In this document: piece after piece, positions 5,312 through 34,974 of the stretch
Position numbering within the stretch: position 1 is the stretch's first letter
Layout of the letters: every line of letters starts with the position of its first letter
DNA from: a virus
Strand: one strand, 5' to 3'
DNA: 34,974 nt
Virus record (IMG/VR): IMGVR_UViG_3300011116_000549
Location: 1 to 34,974 of that record
Notes under the pieces: model-generated
Seen by the model: the letters and a program-made list of their open reading frames with translations, nothing else
Databases searched by the model: none
Told to the model about the DNA's origin: nothing
Program-made: the position numbers and the translations under genes

Positions 5312-5683
5312 ATGGCTGTCCCACAAACTTCAACATGTGTCGTTACCCTCGGTGGCGGTGCTTCAGCTTCATACACAATGCAAGAAAGCAACTGGAAAGT
5401 TATTGATGTATGGGGCAAAGTCCTTGTCGCTGGTGTTGGTGCTGGTGCTGTTGTATCTATTTCTAAAAATGTTTCTACTGGTATTGCTCCAGTAGGTGCT
5501 GGCTTTATGGCTATCTCAGCAGGCACACAACTACAAAAAGGTTCTGCGGCTGGAACAACTTTCCGTCCATCAACCTTTACATCTTCAGCAACTTCACCAG
5601 TTCTAGCTCAAGGTGATACTCTCAACTTATCTAGCGATACCGGTGGTCAAGTTGAAGTATATATCACACTACAAAGAGTATAA
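5312..5683 (+). CDS. Small beta-rich protein, possible head decoration protein
   Basis: A 123-residue protein rich in Gly, Ala, Ser, Thr and Val with alternating beta pattern and no charged clusters. The N-terminal half has a Gly/Ala/Val-rich segment (GKVLVAGVGAGAVVSISKN) and the end is a regular strand (GQVEVYITLQRV). Its codon use, with more C-ending codons (GTC, CTC, GGC, TTC), is closer to that of the major capsid gene than to its neighbours, which suggests high expression. An abundant capsid-decorating or head-fibre protein is a reasonable inference; no specific family is recognised. Confidence 0.8.
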   Translation: MAVPQTSTCVVTLGGGASASYTMQESNWKVIDVWGKVLVAGVGAGAVVSISKNVSTGIAPVGAGFMAISAGTQLQKGSAAGTTFRPSTFTSSATSPVLAQGDTLNLSSDTGGQVEVYITLQRV

Positions 5684-5709
5684 TATCCTCTTATCCATAG
5701 GAGGTTATT

Positions 5710-6003
5710 ATGTCTGCGAAACAAGAAGCGGCTGTAAAGCTAAAAGGTAAAAAACTAAACCAACCATTTAGAACCCCAGATGGTCCTAAAAAGTTTGCTG
5801 TTTATGTAAAAAATAAACAGGGTAGAGTTGTTATCGTAAGGTTTGGCGACCCTAATATGGAGATAAAGAGAGACGACCCTGAACGACGAAAGTCATTTAG
5901 GGCAAGGCATAACTGCGACCAAGCTAACGACCCAACTACACCTAAGTATTGGTCTTGTAGGATGTGGGATAGTAGCGAAAGTGTCGGAGATGTGTTAGAC
6001 TAA
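5710..6003 (+). CDS. Conserved phage protein with FRARHNCD...YWSCRMW motif
   Basis: A 97-residue protein after an AGGAGG site. The core has a beta hairpin (FAVYVKNKQGRVVIVRFGDP) followed by EIKRDDPERRKSFRARHNCD (residues 51-70) and YWSCRMW (80-86). This combination is known to me from many tailed-phage head-region proteins, where it also occurs fused to other proteins; its biochemical function is not established. The paired Cys and the His could form a small metal site. It lies among late small proteins and ends just before the lipoprotein gene. Confidence 0.85.
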   Translation: MSAKQEAAVKLKGKKLNQPFRTPDGPKKFAVYVKNKQGRVVIVRFGDPNMEIKRDDPERRKSFRARHNCDQANDPTTPKYWSCRMWDSSESVGDVLD

Positions 6004-6018
6004 CGGAGGTTTATTTAG

Positions 6019-6192
6019 ATGAAGAAACTTATTCTTATTCCTTTTTTATTATGTTCCTGTGCTAAGGAAGAAGCTTCCTGCCCTGTTGATGTATCGGCTG
6101 TTGAAGTTGATGCTGATGCTTCTGATGCGGTAGATGCTTCTGAAGATGTTAGCCCTGTTGCTGTGGCTTCTGATGCGACAAGTGCTGACTAA
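6019..6192 (+). CDS. Small lipoprotein, outer-spanin candidate
   Basis: A 57-residue peptide preceded by GGAGG. The N-terminus MKKLILIPFLLCSCAKEE is a short lipoprotein signal: basic start, hydrophobic core, lipobox LCS followed by Cys14. The mature part of about 44 residues is composed mostly of Asp, Ala, Ser, Val and Glu, acidic and probably disordered, with one further Cys at position 21. Phage lipoproteins this short are often outer-membrane spanins (Rz1-like), though those are usually Pro-rich; this one is acidic. It is the last gene before the late terminator. Superinfection exclusion is another possibility. Confidence 0.75.
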   Translation: MKKLILIPFLLCSCAKEEASCPVDVSAVEVDADASDAVDASEDVSPVAVASDATSAD

Positions 6193-6219
6193 ATAGGGAA
6201 CTTATAGTTCCGTTTTGTG

Positions 6220-6254
6220 GAGGGTAGGGCGAAAGCTCTGCCCTCTTTTTTTTT
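6220..6254 (+). terminator. Intrinsic terminator at the end of the late block
   Basis: An 11-pair stem (GAGGGTAGGGC, 6220-6230, with GCTCTGCCCTC, 6235-6245; two G-U pairs) with a GAAA tetraloop, followed by nine T residues. A smaller hairpin, GGAACT/AGTTCC, precedes it at 6197-6211. This separates late transcripts from the early promoter just downstream. Confidence 0.95.
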
Positions 6255-6257
6255 CAC

Positions 6258-6286
6258 TATACATTATTTTTGTTTCGTGGTATGAT
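6258..6286 (+). promoter_or_regulatory. Sigma70-like promoter P1
   Basis: TATACA (6258-6263), 17-base spacer, TATGAT (6281-6286), with TGG just before the -10 box (extended -10). It overlaps nothing coding and lies right after the terminator, so it would start transcription near 6293 into the structured untranslated region and the GIY-YIG gene. Confidence 0.65.
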
Positions 6287-6292
6287 GCTTCT

Positions 6293-6660
6293 AAGAAATA
6301 AGCAGACTATTTATTATAAGAACTGCGAGTTCTTTGCAACGAGTAAAACCGATACTTGAGCCACATACCAAGACAACTTATTCCATACGGGGTGAGAGCC
6401 TCAACCAGACACAGAAAGCCCATTTAGAGGATGTGCCTAGAGCAAGTTTTATAAGTGAAGATATATATAAATGGATAAATAGTAGTTTGACTTTCAGTTT
6501 TGATAAGCACAGCAATAGCGGTTTTGGATGTCCGCAGGATAAAGTTTGCTGGAATAGAACTACTTGATACAGAATAAACAATACTATCGGCGGATAAGTT
6601 GTTTATTTTCATTTATAGTATAAACTTCTACCTGTCCTCCTTGTCGGGGATGGGTAGTCG
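6293..6660 (+). ncRNA. Candidate structured noncoding RNA upstream of GIY-YIG gene
   Basis: About 370 bases with no credible gene, starting at promoter P1. Helices visible by eye: AAGAACT/AGTTCTT (6318-6324 with 6328-6334); CGAGTA/TACTTG (6340-6345 with 6353-6358); CTTATTCC/GGGGTGAG (6377-6384 with 6389-6396, ATAC loop); a nested domain AGTAGTT/AACTACT (6481-6487 with 6558-6564) enclosing CAGCAA/TTGCTG (6510-6515 with 6546-6551) and GCGG/CCGC (6518-6521 with 6532-6535); AATAAACAA/TTGTTTATT (6573-6581 with 6599-6607); and CTACCTGTCC/GGATGGGTAG (6628-6637 with 6648-6657). ATACTAT (6581-6587) can also pair with ATAGTAT (6615-6621), which would make a pseudoknot. I could not fit it to RNase P, tmRNA, SRP RNA or the group I core. 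Ends are approximate and the fold is unproven. Confidence 0.5.
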
Positions 6661-6672
6661 TGTCTGGGAGGA
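6628..6672 (+). promoter_or_regulatory. Possible RNA switch over the GIY-YIG ribosome binding site
   Basis: A ten-pair hairpin (6628-6637 with 6648-6657) contains part of TCCTCC (6635-6640), which is exactly complementary to the ribosome binding site GGAGGA (6667-6672) of the nuclease gene. The two pairings exclude each other. Hidden ribosome sites are known for phage homing endonuclease genes such as I-TevI, so translational control is plausible here. Confidence 0.4.
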
Positions 6673-6678
6673 AGGGCG

Positions 6679-6978
6679 ATGTGGAACAAACGAAAGAAAC
6701 ATAGTGGAATATATCTGATAAAAATAAAAGAAACATACTACATAGGACAGAGTGTAGATATAATGTCTCGCTGGAACACTCACCTAACTCAACTATTCGC
6801 TGGAACTCATCACAATAAGTTTCTATTAGAAGAGTTCAATAATAATAACTATAGAGATATAAACTTTAGTATTCTAAAGCTATGTAAAAAGAAAGAGCTG
6901 GATAAATATGAGAAAGAATATATAAAACTTTTTTCTTCAGAAGGTAAAAATATTGTAAATATTTTACTGAACAAGTAG
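6679..6978 (+). CDS. Single-domain GIY-YIG endonuclease
   Basis: A 99-residue protein consisting only of a GIY-YIG catalytic domain. GIY is at 10-12 and the second motif reads YYIG at 20-23; Arg31 (SRWNTH) matches the conserved arginine, and Glu78 in KYEKEYIKLF matches the metal-binding glutamate. The family cuts DNA, as in I-TevI of T4 and free-standing Seg enzymes. Those enzymes carry an extra DNA-binding region, and none is present here: only about 20 residues follow the catalytic Glu. Codon use is very A-rich. It lies directly downstream of the structured RNA candidate with GGAGG seven bases before the ATG. It could be a homing element, a defence against rival phages, or a nuclease working with another factor. 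Confidence 0.9.
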   Translation: MWNKRKKHSGIYLIKIKETYYIGQSVDIMSRWNTHLTQLFAGTHHNKFLLEEFNNNNYRDINFSILKLCKKKELDKYEKEYIKLFSSEGKNIVNILLNK

Positions 6979-6996
6979 AACTTTCTCTGCTATGAT
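6968..6996 (+). promoter_or_regulatory. Sigma70-like promoter P2
   Basis: TGAACA (6968-6973), 17-base spacer, TATGAT (6991-6996) with TGC just before it (extended -10). The -35 box lies in the last codons of the GIY-YIG gene. It would drive the small genes from 7021 onward. Confidence 0.6.
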
Positions 6997-7010
6997 ACTA
7001 GTTATAGTAT
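6995..7010. promoter_or_regulatory. Palindrome at the P2 start site, possible operator
   Basis: ATACTA, four bases, TAGTAT: a perfect six-base inverted repeat that overlaps the -10 box and covers the expected start of transcription. This is a typical place for a repressor site; as RNA it could also form a short 5' hairpin. Confidence 0.4.
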
Positions 7011-7020
7011 AGGAGGAAAT

Positions 7021-7128
7021 ATGAAAAAGAAAAATGGTATGAGAGATAACTTTACTGAAGATAATATTATTGATGCTATTGATAGGAGACTAAAGAAAAA
7101 TGCAAAAAGACTACAGCGAGTTCAATAA
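7021..7128 (+). CDS. 35-residue basic peptide
   Basis: Starts seven bases after the first base of a strong AGGAGG site and a short leader from P2. The sequence begins MKKKNGMRDNFTEDNIIDAI and continues as a basic amphipathic helix rich in Lys and Arg (RRLKKNAKRLQRVQ). It is the first gene after the promoter and overlaps the next gene by 29 bases. Small basic helical peptides of this size early in a phage genome often bind host proteins or nucleic acid, but no family is recognised. Confidence 0.6.
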   Translation: MKKKNGMRDNFTEDNIIDAIDRRLKKNAKRLQRVQ

Positions 7129-7276
7129 AAAGAAAGAACTAATAAAGATATTGTTTGAGGAACCTATCTCGGCTGAAGACCTAGAACTAACACCAGAAGA
7201 AGAAAAGGTATTACTATTACAAGGTCTTCCTCTTAGTGTGAAAGGTAGCTTTGATAAACAGGATGGAGATAAATGA
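7100..7276 (+). CDS. 58-residue hypothetical protein
   Basis: Begins inside the end of the preceding gene in another frame, with AGGAG about eleven bases upstream. The product is a charged helical protein: a basic N-terminus (NKKKELIKILFEE), an acidic middle (AEDLELTPEEEKVLLLQGLP) and a polar tail. It ends in ATGA overlapping the start of the next gene, a sign of translational coupling. Function unknown. Confidence 0.6.
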   Translation: MQKDYSEFNKKKELIKILFEEPISAEDLELTPEEEKVLLLQGLPLSVKGSFDKQDGDK

Positions 7277-7488
7277 TAGTAAAACTAAATGAAGATATAA
7301 TGGAACTAATAAATAAAGAACCAATGAAAACATTTATAGTTCTAAAAGTATTAGGTTCAGCTTCTCTATATTCTGTATCAGGTAAAGCTTATTCAGAAGA
7401 AGCAGTAGAAGAGTTTATAAAAACTATGTATTCTGAAATAAACCCAGAGGAACCTACATACTCTAATAAACTAGAGGATATAAACTAA
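7273..7488 (+). CDS. 71-residue hypothetical protein
   Basis: ATGA overlap with the gene before and TAATG overlap with the gene after. The protein has a helical N-terminus (LNEDIMELINKEPMKTFIVLKVLG), a short Ser-rich turn and an acidic helical C-terminus (SEEAVEEFIKTMYSEINPEE). No membrane segment, signal or known motif was seen. Its tight coupling to both neighbours shows that it belongs to the early P2 operon. Function unknown. Confidence 0.75.
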   Translation: MIVKLNEDIMELINKEPMKTFIVLKVLGSASLYSVSGKAYSEEAVEEFIKTMYSEINPEEPTYSNKLEDIN

Positions 7489-7847
7489 TGAGACAAGAAC
7501 TGGATAATAATACTTTAGTTGATGAAGGTGGAATATATCCAGCAGATAGAACTGAATACTCTCAGTATGTAAAGGACTATCCAAGTGGAGCATCACATCC
7601 ACAGAGTCCATTAGAACACGGATATAGAAGAGTAATAAAACTACTCAACTTACTCGTAAAGGTAAATAAAGGTAATAGAATACCTAATGATAGGTTGATA
7701 GTAGAAAGTCAGATATCCGCTATCTGCGAAGCATTACGAATACTCAAACAAGAACTTCAAATAGAAGGAGGAGAAGACCCAAATGTTATTAGAGAACGAG
7801 AACAAAATAGAAGAACAGACAAACGAAAAAGTCCTTGGAGCAAATGA
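7488..7847 (+). CDS. 119-residue hypothetical protein
   Basis: Coupled to the gene before it. The N-terminal part (residues 1-45) is polar with aromatic residues (GGIYPADRTEYSQYVKDYPS); residues 46-95 form helices (HGYRRVIKLLNLLVKVN, ESQISAICEALRILKQEL); the C-terminus is very basic (REREQNRRTDKRKSPW). The last 65 bases also encode the start of the next gene in another frame. No family is recognised; a helical bundle with a basic tail would suit a nucleic-acid or host-target binding protein. Confidence 0.75.
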   Translation: MRQELDNNTLVDEGGIYPADRTEYSQYVKDYPSGASHPQSPLEHGYRRVIKLLNLLVKVNKGNRIPNDRLIVESQISAICEALRILKQELQIEGGEDPNVIREREQNRRTDKRKSPWSK

Positions 7848-8395: not shown

Positions 8396-9172
8396 ATGGC
8401 TCAAGTAAATAAATGGGGAGCAACAAAACTAGCATCATGCCCAACCCACGGAGATAAACATCTATTATCTTCTGGTTTATGCACCGACTTATCCTGTATC
8501 AAAAAGGTTATCTACAACCATAGTAAAACTTGGAAGATGATAAGTAAGAACTGGAGAATAATAGTATCTCTAGGTTGTGATGATGACTGCTGTATCTTCT
8601 TGGTAAATGAACTACTACGAGAAGAGAAACAATACAATAAGAAGCCTACTCTAAACCCTTGGTGGCTAAAGTTTAGGCTAAAGAAATATATGGTTCAGGG
8701 TGTAAAGTTTTCTAACTTACCTATTCAGCTTGTCCCTGAAAATATGAAGAACATCGTAGATAAGCATCTAGTATCCTACGATAAACTGAAAGAAGAACAC
8801 CCTGACTTCTTTGAGGACATTTTACATAATGCTATGGGTCGGCAAGATGAAGACGACATACCAGCAGAACAAGCTCTAATACATAGACAACTTATGGAAG
8901 AGATAGGAAAGAAGTTTGGCGAACCTCTTATGCTTTATCTGAAAGACGAGATAAACAGAGGAGAGTTCGTAAAGCTTTCAGGTCTAACAATAGAGGGAGC
9001 CTTGCTCTACAAGGACTTTGCTAGAGAAGCTATCAAACATTTCTATATTCATGGTGAGTGGACACAAGCAGACATAGACGAAAGAATAAAATATTTTTGG
9101 GAAAGATATAGTAAAAAGAATAAAGCGAACTATTTATTAGAGCAGGAGGAAAATGCTAATGGAAAACTATAA
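8396..9172 (+). CDS. Hypothetical protein with N-terminal Cys/His cluster
   Basis: The start at 8396 is chosen because GGAGGAAG lies just upstream; an earlier in-frame ATG at 8360 lies inside the terminator stem. The 258-residue protein has Cys15, His18, His22, Cys29 and Cys34 near the N-terminus, a likely small zinc site, and further Cys at 61, 65 and 66. The rest is helical and charged, with a Trp-rich patch (NPWWLKFRLKKYM) and a C-terminal helix-turn-helix-like region (LTIEGALLYKDFAREAIKHF). A DNA- or RNA-polymerase-binding regulator is possible, but no family is recognised. It overlaps the next gene by 20 bases. Confidence 0.8.
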   Translation: MAQVNKWGATKLASCPTHGDKHLLSSGLCTDLSCIKKVIYNHSKTWKMISKNWRIIVSLGCDDDCCIFLVNELLREEKQYNKKPTLNPWWLKFRLKKYMVQGVKFSNLPIQLVPENMKNIVDKHLVSYDKLKEEHPDFFEDILHNAMGRQDEDDIPAEQALIHRQLMEEIGKKFGEPLMLYLKDEINRGEFVKLSGLTIEGALLYKDFAREAIKHFYIHGEWTQADIDERIKYFWERYSKKNKANYLLEQEENANGKL

Positions 9173-13005: not shown

Positions 13006-13034
13006 ATCATAGCACCCCCTTAGAACCTCGTCAA
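13006..13034 (-). promoter_or_regulatory. Strong sigma70 promoter P3 for the leftward operon
   Basis: On the minus strand: TTGACG (13034-13029), exactly 17 bases, TATGAT (13011-13006), with TGC before the -10 box (extended -10). It is the best promoter match in the window and points into the five-gene leftward operon. Confidence 0.85.
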
Positions 13035-18885: not shown

Positions 18886-20262
18886 ATGGCTGCTAATATC
18901 GCAACACTACAAGCGGTTCTAAAGAACTTCTATGCCGCTGCTGTCTCAGAACAGCTAAACCAAGAAGTGCTAATGCTTGACCTATTTGAGAAAGCAAAAC
19001 TTGACTGGTCTGGTAAACGAGTTATCGTTCCAGTCCATGTTGGTCGTAACCAAGGTGTAGGCTTCGCCGCAGAAGGTGCCGCTCTACCAACCGCAGGACA
19101 AGAAACCTACAGCGAACTAAACATTACTGCTAAGTTCCTTTATGGTCGCTTCCAAATAACAGGTCCAGCTATCTCATCTGCTAAGGGTGCTTACTCTTTC
19201 GGAAACTATATTGACCTAGAACTTCGCAAACTCGTTGAGGATGTTCGTAAGAAAGCCAATGTTTCCTGCTTCTCAGGTAATATTGTTATGGGTTATGTAA
19301 CTCGTCGTGTTGTAAATAACGCTGCTGCTGCTGGTGTTGCTTATACTTTCTCTGGCGACCTTGCTGAACTAGCTCGTAAAAGAGCAGCAGCTGTTGCCGC
19401 TGGTCAAAACTTAGTAGTTCGTCTAGTCCGCACAGATACCTACGCATTTGCTCCCGGCGCAGGTAATAACGAAGGCATCGTTTCCGCAGTTGACTTTGCA
19501 AATGATACTATCACCATCACATGTCTTGGTGCTGATACCATTGAAACAACTGCCGCTGCTGCTGTTCTTGCTGGTTCGCCACTAGACCCAACTTGTGGTT
19601 TCGCAGTAACTATTGTTGCTGGTGTAACTTCAGTAGGCACACAGGCTTTCCAAGATGCTCAACTAGAAATAACTGGTATTGCTACCAACCTTTCTAGCCG
19701 CACTCACTTTGGTATTGACCGCACTGATGCTACTGGTGGTTTCAATGTTGCTCTACAAACCAACAGCATCTTTACACAAAATGCTGACGGCGTAGATGGT
19801 AACTATCAAAACTTTGCTGCCCTAACTCTAGGTCGTATGCAAGGTGTAGTTGATAGCATCTTCACTGATAGCGGTCTTCAACCCGATATCATTATGATGA
19901 ACCCTGCTCAAAGAGCATCATACACAAACCTCTTGGTAGGAGCCAATGCTGCTAACCTTTTCAAATATACCGACTCAGCTAAGAACGGCGACGGCGGTTT
20001 CTCTGGTCTAGGTTTCAATGGTATTCCTATCAAGGTTTCTGTTGATGCTGGTCAACACTACTTACTCTTCCTCTACACAAAGGTTTGGAAACTAGCTGAA
20101 CTAGAGAAGCCCGGTTTTGCTGACCTAGACGGCAACATCCTTGCCCGTGCTGGTGTAGGAACTGGTGGTGTAGATGCTTACGAAGGCTACTATCGTATGT
20201 ATTGCGATGAATACTGCGAAAGACCAAATGCTAACGGAGCCATCATCGGTGTAAGCTTCTAA
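18886..20262 (+). CDS. Major capsid protein, HK97 fold
   Basis: A 458-residue protein after AAGGAGG. Residues 60-130 show the E-loop and spine-helix pattern of HK97-fold capsids (ETYSELNITAKFLYGRFQIT, then NYIDLELRKLVEDVRKKANV). Residues about 160-270 are an Ala/Val/Thr-rich beta insertion. The C-terminal part includes LQPDIIMMNPAQRASYTNLL and GIPIKVSVDAG, as expected of the P-domain region. Codon use shifts toward C-ending codons (TTC, AAC, GCC, CGC) compared with neighbours, a sign of high expression. Scaffold lies upstream, and a strong hairpin follows the stop. Confidence 0.95.
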   Translation: MAANIATLQAVLKNFYAAAVSEQLNQEVLMLDLFEKAKLDWSGKRVIVPVHVGRNQGVGFAAEGAALPTAGQETYSELNITAKFLYGRFQITGPAISSAKGAYSFGNYIDLELRKLVEDVRKKANVSCFSGNIVMGYVTRRVVNNAAAAGVAYTFSGDLAELARKRAAAVAAGQNLVVRLVRTDTYAFAPGAGNNEGIVSAVDFANDTITITCLGADTIETTAAAAVLAGSPLDPTCGFAVTIVAGVTSVGTQAFQDAQLEITGIATNLSSRTHFGIDRTDATGGFNVALQTNSIFTQNADGVDGNYQNFAALTLGRMQGVVDSIFTDSGLQPDIIMMNPAQRASYTNLLVGANAANLFKYTDSAKNGDGGFSGLGFNGIPIKVSVDAGQHYLLFLYTKVWKLAELEKPGFADLDGNILARAGVGTGGVDAYEGYYRMYCDEYCERPNANGAIIGVSF

Positions 20263-20278
20263 TAAGTTAGAACTTGTA

Positions 20279-20323
20279 GGGGGCTAGGAGTTTGGCGGGA
20301 ATACTGCTGGGCTTCTAGCCCCC
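20279..20323 (+). other. Strong hairpin after the capsid gene
   Basis: A 12-pair stem, GGGGGCTAGGAG (20279-20290) with CTTCTAGCCCCC (20312-20323), one G-U pair, loop of 21 bases. It is followed by TTCTGG, not a T-run, so it is not a standard intrinsic terminator. It may stabilise the capsid mRNA, act as a processing site, or lower read-through into the portal genes. Confidence 0.7.
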
Positions 20324-20347
20324 TTCTGGTAAAAAGAGGAATATAAA

Positions 20348-20563
20348 ATGGTTTATTGTATGTGGTTTATTTCAGTTGTTTTTTCTATCGGACTTTATTT
20401 CTTTCTAAAAGAACTACAAAAACTACGAACAGATGTATCTGCTTTATTATTATCACATACAATAAAAACAACCAAAGAGACTGAACACCTAGATATTGCT
20501 CTAAGAAGTCAAACACTAGAAGGTCAGTCCGTAAATGATATAATGGGGGACTACTATGGCTAG
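20348..20563 (+). CDS. Small membrane protein
   Basis: A 71-residue protein with an N-terminal membrane helix (about residues 2-20, VYCMWFISVVFSIGLYFFL) followed by a charged helix (KELQKLRTDVSALLLSH) and a polar end. GAGG precedes the start. It overlaps the next gene by eight bases. A membrane peptide between capsid and portal genes might be an internal virion protein, a holin or a DNA-entry factor; no family is recognised. Confidence 0.75.
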   Translation: MVYCMWFISVVFSIGLYFFLKELQKLRTDVSALLLSHTIKTTKETEHLDIALRSQTLEGQSVNDIMGDYYG

Positions 20564-33268: not shown

Positions 33269-34974
33269 ATGGCTGAACCAAAAAGTGGTGATGAAGTCCC
33301 ATTAGACTTATTACCAGATAAACTAAAACCAAAGGCTCCAGCAGCCCCAAAGTCTGGCGATGAAGTTCCATTAGACTTATTACCAGATAAACTAAAACCA
33401 CCAATGCCTACTCCTGCTGATAGAGAAATAACTCTACCAGAAGAAACTATATTTGCTTCTAAGGAAGACTTCCGAAAAGCTATAGCTGAAAACCTTAGTT
33501 GGGCTGGTCTTACACCAGAGTTTTTAGCACAACAAGAAACACAACCTCCACAACAACCTACAGCAACTATTGAGGCTGCTAAACCAGTAAAAGAAGAACC
33601 TTGGTATAAAACTGGTGCTCGTTTATTTTTACCTAAAGCATTTGGTATTGAGGAAGGTTTATTAGGACCAGACCCAGATGAAGCACCAACTTATGATAAA
33701 GCTAAAGTAGAAGCAGATATTGCTAGATATAAAACTATAAAACCCGGTGAAAGTATATTTACCGCAGGACAACTAGTTCGTCCTCTTACATTTCTTGGTG
33801 GTGTAGCCGCAGAAACAGGTAAAAATGTTGTAGAGTTAGCTGCTGGACTACCAGAGTTAGCATTACAAGCTACAGCTCCATTTGCTCTTGGCTCACAAGA
33901 AGCACTAAAACAAGCAACTCAAGGAGCAAATGTAAATAGAGTATCAGCAGAAACCTTTAGAGGCGACCTAGAAAGAGGTCTTGGACTACAACAAGGAGCA
34001 TTAGAACCTAAAGCTACAAAGAGAGTTTTTACAGCACTTGGTGGAGGACCAGAAGCAATAGGTCAAACTCCAACTAAAGAAGAATATGCTCAAAGAGCAG
34101 CAGAAGCAGAAAGAGAAAAATACTTTCCAAAACCATCTCTTCCAAAACGGATGGGAGAAGATGTAGGTCAAGCTGTAACTGGTCTTCTTCAGTTTATCGG
34201 CACAGATATTCTTCCAGTATTACCTTCACCAGAAGGTGTTCCAGTAGGAGAAACATTTGTTGAGGGTGTAAAAAGAGAAGGTAAAGCTGCTTTTGAGAGA
34301 GGTAGTGAGTTTCCAGCAGGAGCAGGAGCATTTGCTCCAATATTAGTAAAGGCTGGAACTGAACTAGCTAATGGTGATGTTGCTAAAGCAGCAGATACAT
34401 TATTAGAAAAACCAGCAACAACAGCATTATCTATGTTGCCCTTCTTACATTATTATACTCCAAGAGTTCCTGCGGCAGTAGCAACATTTACTTATGATAC
34501 TATTGGAGCAGCACTTAGAGCGGCTGGTGGAAAACCTGCTGAGTGGGGTGCTACATTAGGTCGTTGGTTATCTGACCCATTACAAATGGAAACAGACCTA
34601 AAGAGTGCTAAAGCAGAGGCTATCTTTGAGAGAGCAAGACAAGAAAAAGGTAGAGCAAAAGAACAAACTAGACGAGCAGTTCAACAAGCAGTAAAAGTTG
34701 CTATGGAACCAGAGTTTGCTGAAGGTGGCGAAAAGCCTATTATAACAAGAGCCACAGAAACAGGTGAAATGGTATCAACTCCAACTGAAGTTGGTGAGCC
34801 TATTGTAAATGAAGCACTAGCAGAACAAGATGTTAGAATAGCTGATAGACAAGCAAAGAAAAATAGAACATATGGTTATAATACAAGAGTTCCTACTGGC
34901 GGTATTTTACCCGATGGAACAGAGTTTGTAAACTTTGAGGATGCTCCACCATCAGACCTAACTATGGGGCAACT
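33269..34974 (+). CDS. Giant internal virion protein, N-terminal 568 residues (continues at base 1)
   Basis: Starts at ATG 33269 after AAGG and stays open to the window's end; base 34964 aligns in frame with base 191, giving a full length of about 1,872 residues. The N-terminus has two 18-residue repeats (PKSGDEVPLDLLPDKLKP, residues 4-21 and 27-44) and then ADREITLPEE (50-59), also found at the start of the 14352 product. Later parts include Gly/Ala-rich hydrophobic segments (RPLTFLGGVAAETGKNVVEL, AGAGAFAPILVKAGTELANG) that could meet membranes, and a charged coiled coil. A giant ejected core protein is the best reading. Confidence 0.85.
   Translation, partial: MAEPKSGDEVPLDLLPDKLKPKAPAAPKSGDEVPLDLLPDKLKPPMPTPADREITLPEETIFASKEDFRKAIAENLSWAGLTPEFLAQQETQPPQQPTATIEAAKPVKEEPWYKTGARLFLPKAFGIEEGLLGPDPDEAPTYDKAKVEADIARYKTIKPGESIFTAGQLVRPLTFLGGVAAETGKNVVELAAGLPELALQATAPFALGSQEALKQATQGANVNRVSAETFRGDLERGLGLQQGALEPKATKRVFTALGGGPEAIGQTPTKEEYAQRAAEAEREKYFPKPSLPKRMGEDVGQAVTGLLQFIGTDILPVLPSPEGVPVGETFVEGVKREGKAAFERGSEFPAGAGAFAPILVKAGTELANGDVAKAADTLLEKPATTALSMLPFLHYYTPRVPAAVATFTYDTIGAALRAAGGKPAEWGATLGRWLSDPLQMETDLKSAKAEAIFERARQEKGRAKEQTRRAVQQAVKVAMEPEFAEGGEKPIITRATETGEMVSTPTEVGEPIVNEALAEQDVRIADRQAKKNRTYGYNTRVPTGGILPDGTEFVNFEDAPPSDLTMGQ
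33278..33400 (+). repeat. Tandem 18-residue repeat in the giant protein
   Basis: Two copies of PKSGDEVPLDLLPDKLKP, encoded at 33278-33331 and 33347-33400 and separated by five residues. The DNA differs at a few silent positions (for example AGTGGT versus TCTGGC for Ser-Gly), so the peptide is conserved more than the DNA. Confidence 0.9.
34774..34974. repeat. Right copy of the circular overlap
   Basis: Aligns with bases 1-201 without gaps and with four substitutions, all of which change the amino acid (residues 503, 522, 523 and 527 of the joined protein: Ala/Ser, Ala/Val, Lys/Arg, Lys/Arg). Confidence 0.9.

Follow-up and report, generated by a model that had tools for sequence, protein, structure and literature searches.

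Positions 6293-6978 of the phage record are best read, with a probability of roughly 0.45, as a free-standing, shortened homing-type nuclease gene preceded by its structured 5' leader. The region would form one transcription unit that comprises a promoter, a ~370-nt structured leader and a GIY-YIG open reading frame (ORF). The fold, the missing coding potential and the GIY-YIG catalytic domain were established by computation on the sequence; promoter activity and co-transcription of the RNA and the ORF are what we infer.

The window, the whole stretch of DNA that was analysed, is 34,974 bases long and carries genes for a terminase, a major head protein and a portal protein. Its two ends (the first 201 and the last 199 bases) share 98.5% identity; therefore the genome is taken to be close to complete at about 34.8 kb, and it is probably circularly permuted or terminally redundant. 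The mutual repeat, at 3-201 and 34776-34974, extends over 199 bases and contains three unexplained mismatches.

Transcription signals and fold of the RNA

A small operon closed by a terminator (6219-6246) precedes the unit, and a rightward operon with its start near 7022 follows it. The intrinsic terminator that closes the upstream operon (p5710 and p6019) occupies 6219-6255 on the plus strand, with a 12-pair stem (6219-6246), a 4-nt loop and a T-rich tail. The p5710 gene (5710-6003) encodes a small phrog_7595 protein with at least 594 relatives in IMG/VR. Directly 3' of this strong terminator lies a predicted extended -10 promoter, TATACA-N17-TATGAT with the TG element (6258-6286, plus strand), whose predicted start is near 6293. 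A second extended -10 promoter, TGAACA-N17-TATGAT (6968-6996, plus strand), would serve the genes from 7022 on. The count of such promoter-like sites in the region is not above that of shuffled sequences. However, TGNTATGAT has four matches in the whole window versus 1.45 expected, and three of them are located at transcription-unit starts, namely 6278-6286 (+), 6988-6996 (+) and 13006-13014 (-). This placement suggests that TGNTATGAT is an extended -10 promoter common to the units of this phage, in line with the dedicated promoter that the original prediction had put upstream of the RNA. A perfect inverted repeat with hairpin potential, ATACTA-GTTA-TAGTAT (6995-7010), covers the last bases of the second promoter and may be an operator; TTATAGTATA of this repeat is found again within the RNA, at 6613-6622. 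No terminator-like site is present between the RNA and the GIY-YIG ORF. With a promoter upstream and no terminator before the ORF, a leader of the nuclease mRNA is therefore the economical reading.

Region 6293-6678 is non-coding, as had been claimed for some 370 bases here. Its codon scores range from -0.5 to -1.1 and are negative in all six frames, whereas neighbouring phage genes score +0.17 to +0.46 by the same method, and a coding reading of the region was ruled out on these scores. The GC content is 39%, compared with 28% in the GIY-YIG gene. A minus-strand ORF within the RNA (6424-6612, 62 aa) matches phrog_37982 marginally (E 0.0022), probably by chance.

The minimum free energy (MFE) fold of the 386 nt from 6293 to the base before the start codon (6678) has an energy of -102.3 kcal/mol and a z score of -3.08, and none of 100 dinucleotide shuffles folds as well. 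The reverse strand folds less well (z -1.93). The core, 6399-6671, has a z score of -4.7, compared with a mean of -1.1 and a standard deviation of 1.3 over genome tiles; two of 174 tiles are as low, such that the core ranks third when placed among them. Comparably folded tiles are 6001-6273 (z -5.6), which contains the terminator, 20201-20473 (-5.2) and 5401-5673 (-4.4). The fold is thus unusual, in the top 1-2% of the genome, yet a few other tiles of this phage match it.

At least eight complementary helices had been proposed, and the MFE fold of 6293-6678 contains eight with a mean pair probability of 0.92 or higher, all of them thermodynamic predictions from one sequence: 6340-6345/6353-6358, 6377-6384/6389-6396, 6405-6412/6660-6667, 6421-6436/6442-6457, 6481-6488/6557-6564, 6572-6582/6598-6608, 6585-6588/6593-6596 and 6628-6639/6646-6657. 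Hairpins near 6318-6334, 6340-6358 and 6377-6396 occupy the 5' part. The main folded domain (6399-6671, plus strand) is delimited by a closing helix, CCAGACAC/GTGTCTGG, round a multi-branched interior; this helix (6405-6412/6660-6667) has 8 bp, is extended by CCTC/GAGG and has a mean pair probability of 1.00. Within it lies a nested branched subdomain (6481-6564, plus strand). It had been described as a nested three-helix domain, and its outer helix stands at 0.96 while the inner helices are less certain (0.52-0.77). The hairpin CTACCTGTCCTC/GGGGATGGGTAG (6628-6657, plus strand), originally given ten pairs, has 12 in the MFE fold and, because it lacks a U tract, is not a terminator by the terminator scan. 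On these predictions the structured non-coding RNA looks real.

The GIY-YIG protein and relatives of the locus

The ORF at 6679-6978 (plus strand) encodes a 99-aa GIY-YIG protein that consists of the catalytic domain only, as was first proposed. The assignment rests on Pfam PF01541 (E 2.7e-10, residues 9-91, with no further domain), on phrog_7168 (homing endonuclease, E 6.7e-11) and on alignment with I-TevI (1mk0/1ln0). By these matches the nuclease is a member of the homing-type GIY-YIG superfamily. Residues Y12, Y21, R31 and E78 align with I-TevI Y6, Y17, R27 and E75, such that four of the catalytic residues are kept; by its position, N91 is the likely counterpart of I-TevI N90. The Pfam search detected no separate DNA-binding region (NUMOD, HTH or zinc finger), and the ORF ends right after the catalytic domain. 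A structure prediction for the protein reached only a low confidence (pLDDT 59); the model resembles the I-TevI catalytic domain most closely, at a TM score of 0.5. The nuclease, if active, would cut in the manner of I-TevI and itself contribute little specificity of DNA binding.

Viral contigs were searched for relatives of the GIY protein, a 1307-aa protein, terL, the p8360 homologue and p5710. No terL relatives were found in genome contigs; those from viral contigs (L002-L006) are fragments, and the p5710 gene is present in two of them, L005 and L006. With a terL that is 65% identical, L005 stems from a related phage; this contig encodes a GIY relative at about 42% identity, whose NUMOD/HTH-like tail, recognised by eye, is in a shifted frame. 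The shifted tail points to a loss of parts among the homing genes of this phage group. Positions 2113-2469, 2487-2777 and 4452-5081 of L005 hold two GIY-YIG genes with NUMOD-like tails, one of them frame-split, at sites unlike that of the window gene; one follows a p8360 homologue and the other adjoins a p5710 homologue. Catalytic-only GIY proteins also occur in IMG/VR (L096, 104 aa; L098, 98 aa), and there the neighbouring ORF ends about 60-100 nt upstream, a gap too short for an RNA of this size.

Searches of phage, plasmid, IMG/VR and GTDB data revealed no relative of the RNA. Blastn against phages and plasmids returned nothing credible, and contig scans with exact DNA patterns of three RNA segments gave chance matches only. 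A single-sequence covariance model of the RNA (R1) detected only the window itself among related loci and loci with GIY genes (about 1.07 Mb in all), and had no match in four bacterial genomes. Neither L005 nor L006 contains the RNA, and the RNA has no long complementary stretch elsewhere in the window. The RNA therefore appears to be an orphan in the data searched. Its absence elsewhere is weak evidence because most relatives are contig fragments.

The group I intron question

Searching the RNA against Rfam 15 gave 0 matches at the gathering score, and an E-value search returned sub-threshold noise only. At E ≤ 1, the td intron region of Salmonella phage Melville (L090) gave no match and the nrdE intron region of phage Twort gave two sub-threshold snoRNA matches and no group I intron. 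Rfam 15 thus reported none of these known phage introns, so its silence weighs little against a group I intron here; the same applies wherever an Rfam negative is used against introns.

A second covariance model (R2) covers the P7-P9 part and was derived from two introns of the phage IA2 type, that of Melville td and one of Twort nrdE. This two-sequence model found the Melville td and Twort nrdE introns and three more in L131. It recovers four other Twort group I cores with roughly calibrated E values of 3e-8 or lower, and scores 42-126 bits on each of the six phage group I cores that the control records contain. The group I introns are located at 1929-2028 of L090 (Melville td), at 8442-8587 and 10594-10700 of L132 (Twort nrdE) and at 16731-17508 of L131. 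With filters off, the best R2 score in 5700-7500 of the window is 3.6 bits, without a group I core, and the paired R/S motifs (AACGACTA ... GATATAGTC) are absent from 6200-7100. Thus, a phage-type group I intron at this locus is unlikely. A manually built descriptor of the P3-P7 pseudoknot, which 13 of 60 shuffles also satisfied, did not pass its td control; R2 was used instead, and the shuffle count weighs little against an intron.

That the locus is a group I intron, or its remains, carrying its own GIY-YIG gene would fit the frequent association of such genes with phage group I introns such as td, and a silent Rfam is by itself insufficient to dismiss it. Nonetheless, R2 is null at the locus while finding every control core, the R/S pair is missing and no interrupted gene is seen in the ORF list, in which the unit lies between the terminator at 6219-6246 and the promoter at 6968-6996. 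The intron explanation is very improbable overall and, for the phage IA2 type, largely refuted. The original prediction had likewise fitted no group I core and seen no split gene, and the decayed intron that it offered as a simpler alternative now appears unlikely.

Alternative explanations and known systems

As a structured leader, the RNA would form a self-contained, multi-branched domain, closed by a helix that reaches as far as the Shine-Dalgarno (SD) sequence, and its fold may limit or time translation of the nuclease, or protect and insulate a short mRNA. The SD sequence GGAGG (6667-6671, plus strand) sits at the foot of the closing helix, with 7 nt separating it from the ATG, and with 400 nt of upstream sequence its opening costs 5.2 kcal/mol, the fourth highest among the phage genes tested (mean 2.9, standard deviation 2.3). 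However, the opening cost does not stand out from that of shuffled leaders (3.75 vs 3.81 ± 1.90; 72 of 160 as high), and the duplex between the SD and upstream sequence is matched by 236 of 1000 shuffles. Judged against shuffled leaders, occlusion of the SD is at chance level. The fold is notable, and its coupling to translation, or any other effect that it has on translation, is what we infer. A leader is favoured by the terminator and promoter that precede the RNA, by the uninterrupted passage into the ORF, by a non-coding RNA folded as strongly as the top 1-2% of the genome and by the homing-type GIY domain. Precedent exists in the RNA structures at the ribosome-binding sites (RBS) of T4 I-TevI, I-TevII, I-TevIII and segB and of Aeh1 mobE, which for I-TevI, segB and mobE conceal the RBS (PMC2988022, PMC3014915). 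Against it, a leader of ~370 nt far exceeds in length the simple hairpins described for T4, and since no homologues were found, the helices carry no covariation support for selection.

The RNA could instead be an independent phage non-coding RNA that has its own promoter and function, perhaps in host takeover, while a free-standing GIY-YIG gene came to lie next to it, homing genes being prone to settle in intergenic regions. This is a close rival that fits nearly as well as a leader, although on balance it is less probable. In its favour, the strong fold shows no adjustment to the SD, position 6667 closes the main domain ahead of the ORF, two other transcription units have matching promoters, and the GIY relatives of L005 sit elsewhere, next to the p8360 and p5710 homologues. 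Against it, no signal that would end the RNA, such as a terminator, was seen ahead of the ORF, and no related phage with the RNA alone was found. A still less likely explanation dispenses with a functional RNA altogether and regards the region as intergenic debris round a decaying homing gene that folds by chance. The nuclease without a DNA-binding part, the frame-split NUMOD-like tail of its L005 relative, the absence of the RNA from L005 and L006, some ordinary coding tiles of this phage that fold as strongly, and the closing helix and SD pairing, both within chance, are consistent with debris. Chance folding is harder to reconcile with a 386-nt fold that surpasses 100 of 100 shuffles, with a core ranked third among 175 stretches and with the raised G+C relative to the AT-rich gene downstream.

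The original prediction had raised the idea of a nuclease whose target or regulation comes from the RNA. In such a system the RNA would bind the GIY-YIG domain and provide the target recognition for which the protein has no DNA-binding domain. Only the arrangement, an RNA upstream of a nuclease devoid of a recognition domain, points this way. The collections searched yielded no second RNA-nuclease pair, there is no array or paired copy hinting at a guide, and the protein has only 99 aa. GIY relatives without the RNA (L005, L096 and L098, the last two catalytic-only) show that, within the searched data, such nucleases occur independently of it, an outcome that the original prediction had itself named as refuting. 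An RNA-guided or RNA-regulated nuclease is therefore highly improbable. Equally improbable is a new class of large structured phage RNAs, with this one as its first example, that binds the minimal GIY-YIG protein and stands in for its missing DNA-binding domain in target choice or regulation. An unclassified structured phage RNA before a shortened homing-type gene is plausible.

Among known systems, IscB and its omega RNA likewise combine a structured RNA with a nuclease gene directly downstream, whereas the nuclease fold here is unrelated, the RNA has no Rfam match and the RNA-protein pairing is not repeated. A real link to the nuclease would constitute a new kind of RNA-protein nuclease, which is currently unsupported. 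The td group I intron with I-TevI also joins a structured RNA to a GIY-YIG gene, but the present locus has neither a detectable group I core nor a split gene. Free-standing GIY-YIG (seg) homing endonucleases are, as here, intergenic, on the strand of their neighbours and alignable with I-TevI in the catalytic domain, although the 99-aa protein lacks a DNA-binding region. In Aeromonas phage 25, a highly stable hairpin immediately precedes the segD-like gene seg43, whose RBS lies just beyond the foot of the stem (PMC2988022), much as in this phage; a single hairpin there corresponds to a branched domain here. T4 I-TevI and segB and Aeh1 mobE likewise have stable RNA structure upstream of or at the RBS, and the free-standing ones are intergenic (PMC2988022, PMC3014915). 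Compared with those structures, the present one is a branched domain of ~270 nt within a ~370-nt leader, and its SD occlusion is not above chance. If functional, it would be a large structured phage RNA without a described family and would extend the structured upstream RNA of phage homing genes from simple hairpins to a branched domain.
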